From a virus: DNA of 34,293 bases. The position numbers were made by a program, and so were the translations under genes. Location: IMG/VR virus record IMGVR_UViG_3300043119_000044, positions 1 to 34,293 of that record. One strand, written 5' to 3'. Positions 3-22,186 of this stretch are shown here, in pieces. How positions within the stretch are numbered: position 1 is the stretch's first letter; each line of letters begins with the position of its first letter. Under the pieces are notes generated by a model, which worked only from the letters and a program-made list of their open reading frames with translations, did no database searches and was not told the DNA's origin.

Positions 3-1592
3 ACAAAGAATAGCAGCACCTCTTCTGCTGTACCCGCAGCAGGGGACTTAACTAAAGGTGAGTTGGCGATTAACGTCACCGATAAGAAACTGTACACCAA
101 AGACAATAGTGCTACTGTTGTCAAGGTCGTAGGTTCGTTAGGTAATCAAGAAGCTAACGCTGTGGCGATCACAGGTGGTACAGTTGCAGGTGTTGCCCAG
201 ACAGGCGGCACTATCAACAACACCCCTATTGGTGCTACGACTGCTGCTGCTGTGACAGGTACAACCATCACTGCTACCACAGGCTTCTCTGGTACACTGA
301 CAGGTAACGTCACAGGCAATACCACAGGTACTCACACAGGTGCTGTGACAGGTAACGTAACTGGTAACTTGACAGGTAACGTCACAGCCTCTAGCGGTTC
401 CTCTACCTTTAACAACGTAACTATCAGTGGTTCGTTGGACATGGATGCAGGTAGCTCAGCTACTATCACTGGTTTGGCTACTCCTGTTAACAACAGCGAT
501 GCAGCTACCAAGATTTATGTAGATACAGCTATCAGTAACTTGATTGATGGTGCTCCAGCTAACTTGGATACCTTGAACGAGATTGCTGCTGCCTTGAATG
601 ATGATGCTAACTTAGCAGCAACACTGACAGCCTCTATCGCTACCAAAGTATCTAAGGCTGGTGACACCATGTCCGGTGCTCTGGCTATGGGTACTAACAA
701 GATCACAGGTTTAGGTACGCCTACAGCAGGTACAGACGCTACTACTAAGACTTACGTTGATGATGCTAATGCTTTGAAGCTGAGCTTGTCTGGTGGTACT
801 ATGTCTGGTGCTATCGCAATGGGCAGTAGCAAGATCACAGGTTTAGGTACTCCCACAGCAGGCACTGATGCTACCACTAAGACTTATGTTGATGGTATCT
901 TAGGTTCCGCTACCGCTGCTGCTGCTTCAGCCTCCGCTGCTGCAACCAGTGAGACTAACGCTGCTAACTCAGCCAGTGCAGCCTCTGGTAGTGCTTCTGC
1001 TGCTTCTGCCAGTGCCTCTAGTGCTGCTGCAAGCTATGACAGCTTTGATGATCGCTACCTTGGTGCTAAGACATCTGCTCCTACTGTGGACAATGATGGT
1101 AACACGTTGCTCACAGGCGCTATTTACTGGAACTCCACTAGCAGCACTCTGTGGGTATGGTCTGGTTCTGTCTGGACACAAGCTACCTTGACTGCTGGCA
1201 GCTTTGCTACTCTGGCAGGTACTGAGACACTGACCAACAAGACTATTGAAGCTGGTACGTTCACTAACGGTTACACCGAAGAAACGGTGACTGCCAACAC
1301 AAGCACGGCGTACACCATTGATTTAGCCAACGGCACTGTGCAAATCCTGACTCTGACAGGCAACTGCACTTACACCTTTCCAACACCAGTGGCTGGAAAG
1401 TCTTTTATCTTGGTACAAAAGCAAGATGGAACAGGCTCACGCACAGTGACATGGCCTGCCTCGGTTGATTGGCCCGGAGCAACCGCGCCCACGCTGACAG
1501 CTACAGCATCCAAGGCAGACAAGTTTGTGTTCACGGCCATTGACGGGTCTAACTGGCTTGGCAGTGTTGCTGGTCAGAACTACACCGTTTAA
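3..1592 (+). CDS. Tail fibre protein, 5' end cut by the window edge
   Basis: The reading frame is open to the left edge, so the gene begins outside the window; an internal TTG at 63 is not a credible start because the frame continues through it. About 529 residues are visible. Near the left edge is a GELAIN-type segment followed by DKKLYTKD, common in phage fibres. Next come short TGNVTG-type repeats, two copies of a KITGLGTPTAGTDATTKTYVD unit, an Ala/Ser-rich linker, the YDSFDDRYLGAK segment, and a C-terminal domain containing TVTWPASVDWPG and ending SVAGQNYTV. The family role is host recognition at the tail tip; the receptor cannot be read. From about base 1255 codon use shifts toward C-ending codons, suggesting that the C-terminal domain was exchanged. 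It directly precedes the propeller protein. Confidence 0.85.
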   Translation, partial: TKNSSTSSAVPAAGDLTKGELAINVTDKKLYTKDNSATVVKVVGSLGNQEANAVAITGGTVAGVAQTGGTINNTPIGATTAAAVTGTTITATTGFSGTLTGNVTGNTTGTHTGAVTGNVTGNLTGNVTASSGSSTFNNVTISGSLDMDAGSSATITGLATPVNNSDAATKIYVDTAISNLIDGAPANLDTLNEIAAALNDDANLAATLTASIATKVSKAGDTMSGALAMGTNKITGLGTPTAGTDATTKTYVDDANALKLSLSGGTMSGAIAMGSSKITGLGTPTAGTDATTKTYVDGILGSATAAAASASAAATSETNAANSASAASGSASAASASASSAAASYDSFDDRYLGAKTSAPTVDNDGNTLLTGAIYWNSTSSTLWVWSGSVWTQATLTAGSFATLAGTETLTNKTIEAGTFTNGYTEETVTANTSTAYTIDLANGTVQILTLTGNCTYTFPTPVAGKSFILVQKQDGTGSRTVTWPASVDWPGATAPTLTATASKADKFVFTAIDGSNWLGSVAGQNYTV

Positions 1593-1601
1593 GGGGTACT
1601 G

Positions 1602-3626
1602 ATGTTTAGTTCAAACACTACGGGACTGACAACGGGAACCGCGCCAAAGGCAATAGCGTTTGCTGAAGGCGCTGCACCATATATCAGAGTCTTTTCATGG
1701 GGAGCAAGTGGATTTACTGGAATATACTCAAGTCCAGCAACAACTTTGACAAGCACTGGTAACGCTGTTGCATTTAATCCAAATAGTTCTGCAATTGCTG
1801 TGGGCGATCTTGGCTCCCCTTACATTGCAGCTTATCCGTGGACTGCAAGCGGTTTTGGAACCAAATATTCCAACCCCGGAACTTTGCCGGACTATTCTGG
1901 AGAAGGTGTGGCTTTTAGCCCTAATGGGGCGGCCCTTGCAGTAAGTCATTCCTCTGGAACATATATTTCAATATATCCTTGGTCAGCCTCTGGGTTTGGA
2001 ACAAAGTATGCTGATCCGGCAACGCTTCCATCTCAAGCAGCTTATGCTGTTGCCTTCTCTCCGAATGGTAGTTATGTTGCTGTAGCACATCAAAATTCAC
2101 CTCGAGTTACCGCATATCCGTGGTCAGGTTCTGGATTTGGGACTAAATACGCCAATCCAGCAACAATTCCAACAGGAACTGGCCGAGCTATTGCGTTTAG
2201 CCCAAACAGTTCTGAAATTGTTGTTGCTCATGATACTTCACCGTATATCACAGCCTATCCTTGGTCGGCTTCTGGATTTGGAACTAAGTATTCTGATCCG
2301 GCAACGCTTCCAACGGGTAATGGTAAGGGTGTTTCTTTTAGTCCTAACGGAGCTGCCCTTGCAGTCGCGCATACTAGCGTTCCCTATATCACAGCGTATG
2401 CGTGGTCTAATTCCGGCTTTGGGGCCAAATACACAAATCCAGCAACAGAAGCAATCGGTCAAGGTAAATGTTGCGCTTTTAGCCCAGATGGTGGCGCACT
2501 TGCAGTTAACAATCAAGTTTACGCTTGGAGTAGTTCTGGCTTTGGAACCAAGTATTCTAATTCTCCTTTTATCAATGAAAATAATTCACCAAACGGAGTA
2601 GCTTGGTCTACAGTAGGCGATACACCTGCACCTATATATTCGATTGCTGTGGCACACACCATCACGCCATTTATCACCGCCTACCCTTGGAGCGCTTCTG
2701 GTTTTGGTACTAAATATGCTAACCCTGCAACACTTCCAGCAAGCACTGGTCGAGGTGTTTCTTTTAGCCCTAATGGTTCTGCTATAGCTGTGGCTCACTC
2801 TACTACACCCTTTGTTTCGGCTTACCCGTGGAGTGATTCTGGATTCGGGACTAAGTATGCTAATCCATCAACACTACCAACTGGTACTTGTCTAAGTGTA
2901 GCATTTAGCCCTGATAACGCTAATATTGCAGTGGCTCACGGCACAACGCCATTCATTACCGCCTACCCTTGGAGCAGTTCTGGTTTTGGGACTAAATATA
3001 CAAACCCAGCCACACTACCTACTGGGCAGGGTCTAAGTGTTAAATTTAGCCCTAATGGTTCTGCTATTGCTGTAGCTCACGACATAACGCCATTTGTATC
3101 TGCTTACCCTTGGAGTGGCTCTGGTTTTGGCACTAAATACAGTAATCCAGCGACACTCCCGGTAGGTGGAGGTGAGGGTCTTGCTTTTAGTCCCAATAGC
3201 AGTTATGTTGCAGTAGCACAAGCATCAAGTCCATATATTTCAGTTTATCCTTGGAGTGGTTCTGGATTTGGAACCAAGTATTCTGACCCAGCAACACTAC
3301 CAACAGGAACTGGTCAAGATGTGGCGTTCAGCCCTGATAACGCTAATTTGGCGGTATCTCACGCGACATCACCGTTTATCACAGTTTACCCTTGGTCTGG
3401 CTCGGGGTTTGGGACTAAGTATTCTGATCCGGCAACGCTTCCAGCAAGCACTGGTATTGGTGTTTCATTTAGCCCTGATGGTTTAGCAATTGCAGTGGCT
3501 CACGGCACAACGCCATTTATCACCGCCTACCCTTGGAGTGGGTCAGGGTTTGGAGCAAAATATGCCAACCCCGCAACACTTCCAGCAAGCACTGGAAACG
3601 GTGTCGCATTCGGTAAAATTAACTAA
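1602..3626 (+). CDS. Double beta-propeller repeat protein, probable tail tip or receptor-binding protein
   Basis: This 674-residue protein is almost wholly made of WD40/PD40-like repeats. After a 16-residue N-terminus there are 14 repeats: the first is short (38 residues), repeats 2-6 and 9-14 are exactly 47, repeat 7 is 42 and repeat 8 is 53 with a unique insert. A lone final strand, GVAFGKIN, matches the first strand of a repeat, as in the closing strand of beta propellers. Each repeat carries VAFSPNG, AVAH, ITAYPWSGSGFGTKY and NPATLP. The irregular repeats 7/8 at mid-protein suggest two seven-bladed propellers. The ATG has a good AAGGGG site. Position between the tail fibre and tail chaperone suggests a virion surface role, but no enzyme motif or receptor is recognisable. 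A single large propeller is a less likely alternative. Confidence 0.85.
   Translation: MFSSNTTGLTTGTAPKAIAFAEGAAPYIRVFSWGASGFTGIYSSPATTLTSTGNAVAFNPNSSAIAVGDLGSPYIAAYPWTASGFGTKYSNPGTLPDYSGEGVAFSPNGAALAVSHSSGTYISIYPWSASGFGTKYADPATLPSQAAYAVAFSPNGSYVAVAHQNSPRVTAYPWSGSGFGTKYANPATIPTGTGRAIAFSPNSSEIVVAHDTSPYITAYPWSASGFGTKYSDPATLPTGNGKGVSFSPNGAALAVAHTSVPYITAYAWSNSGFGAKYTNPATEAIGQGKCCAFSPDGGALAVNNQVYAWSSSGFGTKYSNSPFINENNSPNGVAWSTVGDTPAPIYSIAVAHTITPFITAYPWSASGFGTKYANPATLPASTGRGVSFSPNGSAIAVAHSTTPFVSAYPWSDSGFGTKYANPSTLPTGTCLSVAFSPDNANIAVAHGTTPFITAYPWSSSGFGTKYTNPATLPTGQGLSVKFSPNGSAIAVAHDITPFVSAYPWSGSGFGTKYSNPATLPVGGGEGLAFSPNSSYVAVAQASSPYISVYPWSGSGFGTKYSDPATLPTGTGQDVAFSPDNANLAVSHATSPFITVYPWSGSGFGTKYSDPATLPASTGIGVSFSPDGLAIAVAHGTTPFITAYPWSGSGFGAKYANPATLPASTGNGVAFGKIN
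1650..3599 (+). repeat. Fourteen tandem repeats of about 141 bp inside the propeller gene
   Basis: The DNA repeats every 141 bp, matching the 47-residue protein period. Copies share blocks encoding SGFGTKY and NPATLP but differ at many synonymous positions, so this is an old, selected protein repeat, not recent satellite expansion. Repeats 1, 7 and 8 differ in length. Confidence 0.9.
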
Positions 3627-3635
3627 AGGAAAATC

Positions 3636-3902
3636 ATGTCAGATAAAACCATTGAAGCCCCAAAGACCCGCGAAGAAATCTTGGCGATGTCCCTTGAAGC
3701 GCGTGAACAAGAAATCATGCACTACCAGATCAACATCGACAACTACACGTTGGCGCTTGAAGAGATGGGCTACATGCCTGCCTCAGAGCGTGCTGAACTG
3801 GCTGGCTTTGCCGAGCAGATTCGCGGCCTGCTGACCTCTGAGATTTTGGAACAGAAGAAGGCCAAGATCATGATGGCCGTCATCAAGAAACAAGTGGGGT
3901 AA
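3636..3902 (+). CDS. Small helical protein of unknown function in the tail cassette
   Basis: The protein has 88 residues and is charged and mostly helical by composition, with EEILAMSLEAREQEIMHYQI then a second helical stretch ending in KIMMAVIKKQVG. I recognise no domain. The start has an AAAGGA ribosome site. It lies nine bases after the propeller gene and four bases before the tail assembly chaperone gene, and shares their C-ending codon use, so it probably travels with them as part of a tail-tip module. A fibre chaperone is possible but unproven. Confidence 0.75.
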   Translation: MSDKTIEAPKTREEILAMSLEAREQEIMHYQINIDNYTLALEEMGYMPASERAELAGFAEQIRGLLTSEILEQKKAKIMMAVIKKQVG

Positions 3903-3905
3903 TCC

Positions 3906-4355
3906 ATGCACGCACTCATCGAAAACGGGGCTGTCAAGCAGTACCCATATGGCCTTTTTCAACTGAAGGCTGACAACCCATTTACCAGCTTTCCGGCTCA
4001 AGCCACCGATGAGATGCTGTCTTCATTTGGTGTTGAGCGCGTGTTCTTTGCGACACCACCAGAACTGACAAACACTCAAGTTCTGGTGGAAGGCACTCCA
4101 GTAATTGCTGACAACCGTTGGACGCAAGTGTTCACTGTGCGCGACATGACTACCGATGAGGTTGCAAACCGCAACGCAGGTCAAGCAGCATCTATCCGTG
4201 CCGAGCGCAACGACAAGCTGGCCGCTTCCGATTGGACTCAGGTTGCTGATGCTCCTGTGAATCAAGCTGCATGGGCTACATACCGTCAAGCATTGCGTGA
4301 TGTAACAGCACAAGCAGGCTTTCCTTGGACTATTGAATGGCCTACACAGCCATAA
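3906..4355 (+). CDS. Phage tail assembly chaperone (Phage_tail_APC-like)
   Basis: The 149-residue protein starts with [20 protein letters not shown] and ends with a segment in which [24 protein letters not shown] and [10 protein letters not shown] stand out. These are hallmarks of the Phage_tail_APC family, small proteins encoded next to tail fibres and thought to assist fibre or tail assembly. The middle part is variable in the family and unremarkable here. Codon use matches the two genes upstream and differs from those downstream, supporting a shared foreign origin for the cassette. Annotation as a fibre assembly factor is family knowledge; its partner here is inferred from position. Confidence 0.8.
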
Positions 4356-6779: not shown

Positions 6780-7010
6780 ATGTCAAACTATACAAAGAGT
6801 ACTAACTTTGCCGTTAAGGATACTTTACCAACAGGTAATGCTGGTAAAATCATTAAAGGCACTGAGATTGATACTGAATACAATAACATTGCTTCAGCCA
6901 TCAGCTCTAAAGGTGATTCTAACAATGGTGCTTTTACAGGCACTACAACAATGGTTAACCTGACTGTATCAGGTACGTTTAATGCAACAGTTGATGGTGG
7001 GAGTTACTAA
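6780..7010 (+). CDS. Small tail protein resembling a fibre N-terminal module
   Basis: I use the ATG at 6780, immediately after the gp10-like stop; in-frame codons further upstream lie inside that gene. The 76-residue product has NYTKSTNFAVKDTLPTGN and GKIIKGTEIDTEYNNIASAI, a motif that in many podoviruses begins the tail fibre and attaches it to the tail. Here it ends soon after (TVSGTFNATVDGG), so it is either a stand-alone adaptor or the remnant of a fibre whose distal part is now encoded elsewhere. The stop and the next start share a base (TAATG). Confidence 0.75.
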   Translation: MSNYTKSTNFAVKDTLPTGNAGKIIKGTEIDTEYNNIASAISSKGDSNNGAFTGTTTMVNLTVSGTFNATVDGGSY

Positions 7011-7948
7011 TGGCTGACTTTGATTGGACTTCTTTACTCGCTCCTTCTATTGGTGCTTTAGGTACAGCCTACGCAGCTAACCAAGCAGCAGGTAATGCTA
7101 CCGCATCGGCGAACCAAGCTGCACAAATGGCTCAGTTCCGTCCTGTTGGTGTTACCTCTCGCTTCGGTAAGTCAGGCTTTCAGTATGGCCCTCAAGGTGA
7201 ACTGGTTGGTGCAGGCTACCAAGTAGCTCCTGATGTTGCTGCAATGCGTGAGAGCTTGCTTGGAATGGCAGGCTCAGGTCTGTCACAGGCTCAGTTGGCC
7301 CAACAGATGCAAGGTGGAATTACCACAGCAGGTCAAGGCTTGTTTAACCTCGGTCAACAGTATGTTGGTGAAAGTCCTCAGGCTGTAGCTCAGAACTACA
7401 TGACTCAGCAGCAGGGTTTACTTGCTCCGGGACGTGAACAGCAGTTAGCTCAGTTGACTAACCAACAGCAGCAACAAGGTCGTTTAGGTCTTGCCACAGG
7501 CGGTACAGCAGCAGGCTACACAGCAGGTGCTCCCGGCTTACAAGCTACCAACCCACAGATGGCTGCTTACTACAACGCTATGGCTCAGCAGGATGCTCAG
7601 TTGGCTGCTAATGCTAACCAAGCAGGTCAACAGCAAGTTACCTTCGGTCAAGGCTTGATGACAGGTGGTATTAACCTGAACAATGCTGGCTACGGTATGC
7701 AGTCCAATGCTCTGGTTCCATATACCAACTTCTTGCAAGGTGCTCAGAATGCTGAAAACTTAGGCATAAATGCATTGACAGCAGGTCAAAGCTTAGGCTC
7801 AGCAGCAGCTTCTAGCAACCAAGCAGCAGCTAATCAGTACATGGGTGGACAGAACATTGCTAACACTGCTAACCGTGCTGCTGTTACAGGTGCTGTTGCA
7901 GGTTTGACTGATCCTATTGCACAGTTGATTGCAAGCTTAACCCGTTAA
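7010..7948 (+). CDS. Internal virion / DNA ejection protein 1, Ala-Gln rich
   Basis: The 312-residue protein is very rich in Ala, Gln and Gly, with long helical stretches (LAQLTNQQQQQGRLGLATGG and similar) and few charges. This composition and its place directly after the tail genes match small DNA-transfer proteins of P22-like podoviruses. An N-terminal hydrophobic segment (LAPSIGALGTAYAANQAA) may insert in membrane. No catalytic motif is seen. The three successive genes to 10724 probably form the ejection complex; which corresponds to which P22 or T7 protein cannot be decided. Confidence 0.7.
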   Translation: MADFDWTSLLAPSIGALGTAYAANQAAGNATASANQAAQMAQFRPVGVTSRFGKSGFQYGPQGELVGAGYQVAPDVAAMRESLLGMAGSGLSQAQLAQQMQGGITTAGQGLFNLGQQYVGESPQAVAQNYMTQQQGLLAPGREQQLAQLTNQQQQQGRLGLATGGTAAGYTAGAPGLQATNPQMAAYYNAMAQQDAQLAANANQAGQQQVTFGQGLMTGGINLNNAGYGMQSNALVPYTNFLQGAQNAENLGINALTAGQSLGSAAASSNQAAANQYMGGQNIANTANRAAVTGAVAGLTDPIAQLIASLTR

Positions 7949-7959
7949 GGAATACGATA

Positions 7960-9204
7960 ATGGCAACACAAAGTTTATTCGGAGGCTCTATGTCTCCTCA
8001 AGAGATGCAAGCTCAGATGTTGGAGCAAAAGGCAGCTCAGTTTGCCCAGATGACACCTGATCAGCAGTTAGGCATGATGGCTTATAAAGCTGGCTCAGGT
8101 GTTGGCACAGGCTTGGCAGGTGCTTTCGGTGTACAGACACAAGACCCAACGATTCAACGAGCTACCAAGCTTCGTGAGCTGGCAGGACAGTACAACACCA
8201 ACACTGCTGCTGGTATCCGTCAAATGGCTGATGCCTTGCGTACTACTGATCCTGAGATGGCTTTGCAGTTGTCACAGAAGGCTGCTGCTATGGACTTGGA
8301 AGCTGCTAAGCTGACTTCTGAGCAAGCTAAAACAGTATCTAGTGAAGCCCAAGCAGGTAAATACTTGGCTGAGCAAGGTAAGATTCTCCGAGGTGAAGCC
8401 AAAGATGAGCAGTTACGCTCTGAGTTAGCTGCTTTGCCAATGGATGCTGATGATAAAACTGTGGAAGCTGTTGTTCGTAAGTATGGCAAACCTGATGACA
8501 TCTTTAAGACTCTTGAGCGTAAGCAGACAGCAGAAGCTACTCGTATTGCTAAAGCTCAATTGGAAAAGGAAAAGGCTGAAACTCGTGCCATTGAGCAACA
8601 ACGTGATCGGGAGTTTAAGCAACAGTTAACTATGATGGCGCAGGCAAATCGATCTGCTGTAACAGGAGTTCAGCAACAGTTTGCACAACAGCGTCTGGAT
8701 GACTTGAAAGACAAAGCAGCCGAGAAGCTGGACAAGAAAGAAGCATCTAAGCAGTTCGCTATCAACCATGCTAATAAAGTAGTTGAGGATGTATCTGCTG
8801 CTAAGTCTCTTGTGTCAGGCACTACAGCAGGTTTGGTAGGTAAAGGTACTTCGTTCATTCCCGGTACTGACTCTTATAACTTGAATCAACGCTTGTTGAC
8901 CATTAAAGCTAACCTTGGTTTTGATCGTTTACAACAGATGCGTGATGCTAGTCCAACTGGCGGTGCTCTTGGTCAGGTTGCTGTACAGGAACTTCAAGCT
9001 TTGCAAGCTACTGTAGGTTCGTTAGAGTTGGGACAATCCAAAGCAGAGTTACAGAAGAACTTAGATAAGATTGAACTTCACTACAATAACTGGTTAAGCA
9101 CCGTTGGCGGTACACCAGCAGTGAAACCTCCTGTTGCTCCAGCATCTCCTGCGGCTCCTGCTAACGCTGCTACTGGTGGCTGGTCTATTCGACGAAAACA
9201 ATAA
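7960..9204 (+). CDS. Internal virion / DNA ejection protein 2, coiled-coil rich
   Basis: The 414-residue protein begins SLFGGSMSPQEMQAQML and has a long helical, coiled-coil prone centre (around residues 120-275) rich in Lys, Glu, Ala and Gln. A conserved-looking C-terminal domain follows, with RLLTIKANLGFDRLQQMRDA and VGSLELGQSKAELQKNLD, a block I associate with podovirus internal proteins. It ends in a Pro/Ala linker and a basic tail. An AAGGA site precedes the ATG. The role in forming a channel for DNA entry is inferred from family and order. Confidence 0.7.
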   Translation: MATQSLFGGSMSPQEMQAQMLEQKAAQFAQMTPDQQLGMMAYKAGSGVGTGLAGAFGVQTQDPTIQRATKLRELAGQYNTNTAAGIRQMADALRTTDPEMALQLSQKAAAMDLEAAKLTSEQAKTVSSEAQAGKYLAEQGKILRGEAKDEQLRSELAALPMDADDKTVEAVVRKYGKPDDIFKTLERKQTAEATRIAKAQLEKEKAETRAIEQQRDREFKQQLTMMAQANRSAVTGVQQQFAQQRLDDLKDKAAEKLDKKEASKQFAINHANKVVEDVSAAKSLVSGTTAGLVGKGTSFIPGTDSYNLNQRLLTIKANLGFDRLQQMRDASPTGGALGQVAVQELQALQATVGSLELGQSKAELQKNLDKIELHYNNWLSTVGGTPAVKPPVAPASPAAPANAATGGWSIRRKQ

Positions 9205-9212
9205 GGATAGGT

Positions 9213-10724
9213 ATGGCTACATTTGTTGTCACAGCTCCAGACGGTAAGGAGTATGAAATTACAGCCCCTGAAGGAGCTACACAGGAGCAAGTATTGGCCT
9301 ATGCTCAGCAGAACTACAATAAGTCTGCTGAGCCTGCTAAGGCTGAACAACCTAAGCGTAGTCTTGCTCAAGAGGCAGCTCGTCAGTTAGGTCTTACAGC
9401 ACGTGCAGGCATCACAGGCTTAACAGCAGTTCCTGCTATGATGGCTGAGCCTGTTGCTGCTGGTATTAACATGCTGGCAGGTAAGCAAGTGATGGGTTCA
9501 CCTACTCAAGGTATCCAAAAGCTCATGACTGCGGCAGGCTTACCAGAGGCTCAAGGAGGCTTAGAACGAGCAGTACAGACAGGTGCTTCAGCTATGGCTG
9601 GTATTCCTGCTCAAGCTGCATTGTCTGGTACTTCTGCTGCTCTAGCTCCCTTGCGTCAGAATATGCTTCAGCAGACAGCAGCAGCTGGTGTTGGCGGTAC
9701 GTCAGGCCAAGCAGCAGCAGATGTTGTGCAAGAAGCTACTGATAGTCCTATTCTAAGCGCTATTGCAGGTATTGCAGCAGGCGCTTTAACAGGCAGTGTT
9801 GCAGCTAAAGGAGCTACAGCAGCTACTACCAAGCGTGATCCTATGGTTACTCTGGATCAGATCAAACAACGTGCTCAGAAAGCTTATGCCAGTGTTGAAG
9901 AACAAGGTGTAACATTAAAGCCTAAGAGTGTGTTGGATAACTTTGATAGCATTGAAAGTGCTCTGCTTAAGGAAAACTTTAACCCTAAGCTGGATGCTCA
10001 TAAGCCTGTAGCTCAGGTGCTGGAACAGTTACGGGACATGACAGGCACTCAGCGAGTTCCTTTTAGCAAGCTCGAACAGATGCGCTCTGCTCTTGTAGAC
10101 TTAAAGACAGCTAAGGATGCGGCTACCCGTAAGTATGCAGGCCAAGCTGTGTCTGAGTTAGACAACTACATCACCAACCTTAATGGTAAGGATGTTATCT
10201 CTACCACAGGCAATTTAGGCACAGCAGTTAAGTCTGTTCAAGAAGCTCGTAAAGACTGGCGTAACCTCTCTAGGGCTACAGTGTTAGAAGATGCTTTGAA
10301 TGTTGCTGAAGCACGTGCTCTTGACCCTAAAGCATCTGAAGGTGAATTGATTCGTCGTCAGTTGATCAACCTTGCAGCTAACAAGGACAAGATGCGGTTC
10401 TTCTCCGAACGTGAAAAGAATGCTATTAAGAGCGTAGCTTCTGGCCCTACCGCTGATCCATTACTGTCTCTCTTAGCTCGGTTAAACCCTGAGCGTAGTG
10501 CTTTGATGCAAGCAAGTACAGTGGCTGGCTCTTTCGCTAACCCTGCCGCTGCTGCGGGTGTTGCAGGTATCGGCTACGGTGCTGACAAACTTCAAGGAGC
10601 TTTACGTAAAGGCTCAGTGGATCGTTTAATCTCAGATATTGCTTCTGGTAAGGTTGCTGGCCCTGCTGCCAATACTTCCTTCAGAGGCTTACTGTCTGGA
10701 TTACCTACACAACCTCAGGAGTAA
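9213..10724 (+). CDS. Internal virion / DNA ejection protein 3 with N-terminal virion-protein motif
   Basis: The 503-residue protein starts with FVVTAPDGKEYEITAPEGAT and QEQVLAYAQQNY, a short module common at the N-terminus of podovirus internal proteins. Between about residues 55 and 205 it is Ala/Gly-rich and hydrophobic with several possible membrane-inserting helices, including ILSAIAGIAAGALTGSVAAK. The following part is helical and charged, and another Ala/Gly segment lies near residue 440. It is the last gene before the lysis genes. Role in membrane passage of DNA is inferred; no lytic transglycosylase motif is visible. Confidence 0.7.
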   Translation: MATFVVTAPDGKEYEITAPEGATQEQVLAYAQQNYNKSAEPAKAEQPKRSLAQEAARQLGLTARAGITGLTAVPAMMAEPVAAGINMLAGKQVMGSPTQGIQKLMTAAGLPEAQGGLERAVQTGASAMAGIPAQAALSGTSAALAPLRQNMLQQTAAAGVGGTSGQAAADVVQEATDSPILSAIAGIAAGALTGSVAAKGATAATTKRDPMVTLDQIKQRAQKAYASVEEQGVTLKPKSVLDNFDSIESALLKENFNPKLDAHKPVAQVLEQLRDMTGTQRVPFSKLEQMRSALVDLKTAKDAATRKYAGQAVSELDNYITNLNGKDVISTTGNLGTAVKSVQEARKDWRNLSRATVLEDALNVAEARALDPKASEGELIRRQLINLAANKDKMRFFSEREKNAIKSVASGPTADPLLSLLARLNPERSALMQASTVAGSFANPAAAAGVAGIGYGADKLQGALRKGSVDRLISDIASGKVAGPAANTSFRGLLSGLPTQPQE

Positions 10725-22101: not shown

Positions 22102-22186
22102 TGGTGGGCCTAACCTGACTCGAACAGGTACGCTTTGCAGCGGGAGATTTTAAGTCTCCTGTGTCTACCTATTTCACCATAGGCCC
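22102..22186 (-). tRNA. tRNA-Leu, anticodon UAA, CCA encoded
   Basis: The 85-base gene folds as a class II tRNA: acceptor GGGCCTA pairs with TAGGCCC, an anticodon stem GGAGA/TCTCC holds loop CTTAAAA (anticodon TAA), a variable arm CGC-TGCAAA-GCG follows, and the T arm has TTCGAGT between ACCTG and CAGGT. Discriminator A and CCA are encoded. It reads UUA (and UUG by wobble), codons that are common in these phage genes. Confidence 0.95.

Follow-up and report, generated by a model that had tools for sequence, protein, structure and literature searches.

A predicted two-ring, WD40-like propeller encoded beside a phage tail fibre as a probable exchangeable host-binding module

Phage receptor-binding propellers are already known: the phi11 receptor-binding protein (Gp45) and PRD1 P2 contain five-bladed propellers, and PhiKZ gp131C a seven-bladed one (PMC4901313). 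In cells, highly repetitive WD40 proteins, WD40 proteins with 14 repeats and variable hotspot sites have been described (PMC5587647), and propellers keep arising by amplification of single blades, some viral ones among them (PMC9218822). In the WD40 domains of fungal NLRs (HET-D/HET-E/HNWD), repeats are shuffled and each of them has four positions under selection (PMC4986451). Here we compare with these systems a propeller encoded in a 34,293-nucleotide viral sequence, IMG/VR record IMGVR_UViG_3300043119_000044, the whole of which is referred to as the window.

The window derives from a short-tailed phage with an SU10/P22-type portal (SU10_portal, E = 6.4e-22; SU10_adaptor, E = 5.2e-16), and it also carries genes for terminase, DNA polymerase, primase-helicase and ribonucleotide reductase. 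A tRNA-Leu gene (anticodon TAA; 22102-22186, minus strand) lies between a gene cluster and the DNA polymerase gene. Three large ORFs occupy positions 7010-10724; neither PHROG nor Pfam gave a match for two of them (7010-7948 and 9213-10724), and the third (7960-9204) has a weak match to a protein described as "released from the phage upon host infection".

The propeller gene (1602-3626, plus strand) encodes 674 amino acids arranged in 14 units of about 47 residues. Tryptophan anchors occur at residues 33, 80, 127, 174, 221, 268 and 309 in units 1-7, and at residues 363, 410, 457, 504, 551, 598 and 645 in units 8-14, giving spacings of 47 (five times), 41, 54 and 47 (six times). These anchors bear out the 14 repeats proposed in the initial annotation, and the structural model its closing lone strand; the irregular lengths of 42 and 53 that it gave for repeats 7 and 8 describe the same irregularity with a different residue as starting point. 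Tandem Repeats Finder independently detected a 141-bp period at 2643-3610 (score 645). The earlier description of the repeats as near-identical was too strong, as the 11 regular 47-residue units are merely similar, with mean identities of 63% (amino acid) and 64% (DNA; range 55-76%).

The protein starts in mid-unit, where KAIAFAEGAAPYIRVFSW matches SAIAVAHGTTPFITAYPW without gaps, that is, strands b and c, and it ends in GVAFGKIN, that is, strand a. The eighth unit's surplus residues, TVGDTPAP (residues 337-344; 2610-2633, plus strand), follow a strand a (GVAWS, 332-336) and precede a strand b (IYSIAVAH, 345-352), at the very point where the N and C ends of the protein would come together. Thus, in the sequence, the arrangement b-c-d, six full units and a occurs twice, with a short linker in between that is also placed by the structural model and by extra spacing at the same point in relatives. 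Ring 1 (residues 16-336; 1647-2609, plus strand), delimited by the sequence reading and by DSSP analysis of the model, begins with strand b, continues through six full units and is closed by strand a (GVAWS). Ring 2 (residues 345-674; 2634-3623, plus strand), delimited from the model, is closed by the C-terminal strand.

Structure prediction, which the initial annotation had proposed as a check of its reading of two fused seven-bladed propellers, returned a propeller fold with two seven-bladed rings. An AlphaFold2 run with an alignment of 46 relatives (50-65% identity), used in place of a single-sequence run without alignment (pLDDT 31.5), gave a mean pLDDT of 90.7, with residues 1-11 as the sole segment below 50. 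DSSP strands in this model match the sequence reading, the first at residues 17-21 and the last, lone strand at 665-673; strand d is short. The pTM of 0.73 leaves the mutual orientation of the two rings uncertain. The top Foldseek match in the PDB was 2YMU (E = 4.7e-31), a highly repetitive two-propeller protein; Foldseek also found 1NR0, with two seven-bladed propellers, and 7BID, a designed seven-bladed protein (TM-score on target 0.84; rmsd 3.4 over 326 columns). A phmmer search of the PDB gave weak matches only, the best being 6R5Z, a nine-bladed propeller of three fragments (E = 0.0038). Against PF00400 (WD40) the whole protein scores 32 bits, over the cut-off of 27, with no single stretch passing. 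The unit consensus TGTGNGVAFSP lacks GH, and at the end of strand c the tryptophan is followed by serine, instead of forming a WD dipeptide, in 820 of about 880 units. The units are therefore called WD40-like rather than filed as WD40.

Four IMG/VR scans returned 412, 452, 36 and at least 598 related stretches. The initial annotation considered such regular propellers unusual in phage tail tips, yet with at least 598 related stretches in one scan this type is not rare. Because the relatives' loci were ranked by similarity to 14-, 7- and 21-unit query proteins, the proportions of unit counts are biased and the linker positions are not; 112 of 133 distinct complete ORFs had exactly 7, 14 or 21 units (61, 46 and 5 ORFs, respectively). 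In 14-unit relatives the mean spacing was 46.9-47.2 everywhere except after unit 7, where it was 52.0 (minimum 50, maximum 62), and every clear 14-unit relative has extra residues there; in 21-unit relatives both junctions, after units 7 and 14, are long. That the counts keep to multiples of seven and that every junction has a linker is strong evidence for separate seven-bladed rings that does not depend on the model. Several ORFs with other counts reflect split or missed units: counts of 15 or 17 contain 16+31 or 6-residue spacings, showing units split by the search, and one relative counted as 13 (L078) has a spacing of 98, hiding a missed divergent unit. Repeat collapse during assembly may account for counts of 9, 12 and 13, and one relative with 8+7 units (L219) is a true exception. 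A superhelix and a single 14-bladed ring were both considered and rejected, since neither fits the junction insert, the genes with seven units or the model. Two seven-bladed WD40-like rings in one chain, with a C-terminal strand a closing each of them, are a well-supported prediction, on which the high-confidence model, the fold matches (2YMU, 1NR0 and 7BID) and the counts with their junction insert agree.

Among named relatives, the Manatee Spring phage protein (MW202701) is 63% identical at 98% coverage, has 14 units and is followed by a tail assembly chaperone; A0A6J5SDD4 and ORF76 of Pseudomonas phage POR1 match the window propeller in fold. Cultured phages with related propellers, at 26-31% identity, include Pseudomonas phages ZRG1 and POR1 and Salicola phage CGphi29. 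One phage (L049, 5674-9977; also L050-L052) has three genes for single-ring propellers, and the first of these propellers is joined to a fibronectin type III domain (PF00041, E = 3e-8). On a 108-kb contig, a 1971-residue protein (L242, 5986-11898) has 21 detected units followed by about 900 residues without a Pfam match. Related propellers also occur on bacterial MAG contigs: one (L246, 7932-10730) has seven units and then RHS-like sequence, and two others (L247, 7977-9812, seven units; L249, 7959-9839, five detected units) resemble each other in an Ala-rich C-terminal part.

Directly upstream of the propeller is a tail-fibre gene (3-1592, plus strand; PHROG 38058 tail fiber, E = 7.9e-31; PHROG 9017, E = 5.4e-12), whose 5' end lies outside the window and whose stop is 9 bp before the propeller start. 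Downstream, on the same strand, are an 88-residue ORF without assigned function (3636-3902) that is part of the conserved cassette, and a gene for a tail-assembly chaperone (3906-4355; Phage_tail_APC, PF16778, E = 5.6e-22). The search for homologues beside tail fibres suggested by the initial annotation was successful: 29 of 42 ORFs upstream of propellers match the PHROG 9017 tail fiber protein and, among the 54 multi-ring loci with enough downstream sequence, relatives of the chaperone and the 88-residue ORF lie within 1 kb downstream in 53 and 50, respectively. In several single-ring relatives the ring is, in frame, the C-terminal part of a tail-fibre polypeptide. One of these joins the ring to collagen-like repeats (L114; PHROG 6320 tail fiber, E = 9e-32), three (L137, L144 and L126) fuse it to sequence matching tail fiber PHROGs, and further fused relatives carry LPVANGGTGATTLTANNVLLGNGTSA-type repeats, which we take to be tail-fibre repeats. 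The propeller family is thus encoded next to a fibre here and fused to one in relatives, the association expected of a tail-fibre receptor-binding protein, and the in-frame fusions and the conserved cassette indirectly support the initial suggestion of a location on the virion surface. The position at the C-terminal end of fibre polypeptides places the ring at the far end of those fibres and, we infer, also where the propeller is a separate gene; BLASTP found no homology between the C-terminal domain of the window fibre and the domain that comes before the ring when the two are fused in relatives (E = 0.15). In Pseudomonas phage ZRG1 (L083, 9158-10960), a propeller with at least six detected units follows a tail-terminator domain (PHROG 4204, E = 1.6e-14) instead of a fibre, joined to it by a PDPTPDPDP linker.

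Comparison of the window's own units gave pS of 0.64, pN of 0.26 and dN/dS of about 0.22, with synonymous sites near saturation; medians across 112 genes, with units compared within each gene, were 0.58 for pS and 0.22 for pN. The synonymous differences between copies had been read as selection on the protein, which holds on average but fails at four positions per unit: across the 112 genes, the ratio of pN to mean pS was 1.07, 1.14, 1.12 and 0.91 at unit positions 3, 5, 21 and 22, and 0.01-0.73 at all others. Positions 3 and 5 precede strand a, and positions 21 and 22 are in the b-c turn; given the antiparallel topology, both sets of loops, d-a and b-c, are on the same face, which in WD40 proteins is called the "top". 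The chance that all four variable positions land in the ten such loop positions is about 0.001. In 20 close unit comparisons, changed codons at these positions were 15 nonsynonymous and 5 synonymous, versus 32 and 67 elsewhere in the unit (Fisher P = 0.0007). Diversifying selection at the four positions is suggested, although it is not proven, since the per-site rates are near neutrality. The c-d segment (PWSGSGFGTKY), by comparison, ranks with the best-conserved parts of the unit (W31, S32, G35, F36, G37 and K39). The proposal that one regular surface binds one glycan many times over is a poor fit for the d-a/b-c face, since each blade there has its own set of four residues, but the regular, conserved c-d face could act in this way.

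Blades also turn over. Units at the same position in different proteins are scarcely more alike (61.3% protein identity) than those at different positions (60.7%), and DNA identity is higher within one gene (66%) than otherwise (61%). Between one pair of relatives (L139/L150) the order of best-matching units is rearranged, and in another (L109/L127) one unit is matched by three. Entire rings are replaced as well. In the pair L042/L057, DNA identity is 90% upstream, 98% in ring 1, 62% in ring 2 and 97% downstream, and in L021/L056 the corresponding values are 97%, 95%, 73% and 89%; the conservation of both flanks makes assembly chimeras unlikely in these two pairs. A third pair, with dissimilar flanks, has 96% identity in ring 1 and 64% in ring 2 (L039/L218). 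Ring 2 alone was thus replaced as a block in three lineages, and no compared pair showed replacement of ring 1 with ring 2 conserved. In many other pairs both rings are 63-75% identical between conserved flanks, forming a variable island. A diversity-generating retroelement (DGR) target was considered and rejected: no template repeat was found among own-locus DNA matches outside complete propeller ORFs in the partial loci, and no reverse transcriptase among the window ORFs scanned. Such matches occurred only in L106, L113 and L126, and those examined were long and typical of further propeller sequence. It is quite possible, though short of probable, that these uncultured phages diversify by a route independent of retroelements, in which the blades and seven-bladed rings of host-binding propellers are recombined as cassettes with ring closure as the sole constraint and variability on one face, resembling fungal NLRs but on the attacker's side.

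We propose that the propeller is probably an exchangeable, distal host-binding module of the tail fibre. The two-ring propeller, a separate gene in this phage, probably docks on the C-terminal head domain of the upstream fibre, aided by the chaperone encoded two genes downstream; in several single-ring relatives a single polypeptide holds both fibre and ring. Its d-a/b-c loop face, with about four variable residues per blade, would contact a host surface molecule, and specificity could shift by point changes at those residues, blade shuffling or whole-ring replacement, while ring closure would hold the blade count at multiples of seven. On a conserved blade scaffold, the variable surface positions, the changing blades and the whole replaceable ring together suggest a rapidly re-tooled grip on the host cell, and turnover of blades and rings, we infer, changes host range.

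The conservation of the c-d segment, repeated identically round the ring, would also suit a lectin-like multivalent binder that uses this regular loop face, with a variable face that is merely unconstrained, as its near-neutral rather than clearly positively selected positions would allow. We consider this unlikely, because c-d conservation can be structural, the segment holding core strand c, and because phages whose flanks are conserved can differ in entire rings, a divergence for which a fixed ligand gives no reason. That the number of rings varies from one to three with the cassette unchanged could also fit a structural spacer or decoration of the fibre or tail with no part in host binding; propellers are structural parts in short tails, and a paper on the phage SU10 tail reportedly deals with propeller-containing tail proteins. 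Variation on one face and block replacement of one ring are not expected of a spacer, and in fused relatives the ring is terminal, after the fibre head domain, so that such a role is distinctly improbable. Many propellers are enzymes, and the protein has weak similarity to the seven-bladed Pfam Lactonase family (E = 7e-4, below the curated cut-off). An enzyme acting on host polysaccharide, or an intracellular protein beside tail genes by chance, is nevertheless very improbable: the blades are interchangeable and lack conserved asymmetric residues, which speaks against a single active site; the fusions to fibres do not suit an intracellular role; and one genome_contigs scan gave 6 relatives versus at least 598 in one viral scan.

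If the host-binding module is real, the same kind of modular adhesin is present in hundreds of environmental phages, and about four residues in each blade could reveal its specificity, offering a handle on host range for viruses known only from sequence. The persistence of counts in sevens despite shuffled blades is a natural experiment in how repeat proteins keep their fold while changing their surface. Within the literature covered, which left out most subscription papers, no description of a multi-ring phage propeller family was found, nor of phage propellers with counts in sevens, one-sided variability and ring replacement beside a fibre. MW202701, A0A6J5SDD4 and POR1 ORF76 belong to the same family and are annotated by name only (WD40) or as hypothetical, with no function proposed; the last is one ring-sized protein of about 30% identity, versus two rings in the window. 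Like Gp45 of phi11, PhiKZ gp131C and PRD1 P2, the window protein places a beta-propeller in a (putative) phage receptor-binding protein, but those have one propeller per chain, with neither multi-ring arrays nor repeated, nearly exchangeable blades. Npun_R6612 of Nostoc (2YMU) likewise has 14 repeats forming two seven-bladed propellers in one chain (PMC5587647); unlike the window propeller, it is cellular, has canonical WD40 repeats and lacks a fibre context, and the two are only 20% identical in structural alignment. Fungal NLR WD40 domains share with the phage propellers shuffled, conserved repeats and four variable positions per repeat on the loop, or interaction, face. The fungal proteins are eukaryotic immune receptors with polymorphic repeat number and selected positions, whereas phage propellers come in multiples of seven and their positions are near neutral, positive selection being unproven. 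The likeness between phage propeller and fungal immune receptor, each a WD40-like ring with four variable loop-face positions per repeat and shuffled repeats, would be a convergence that merits testing.
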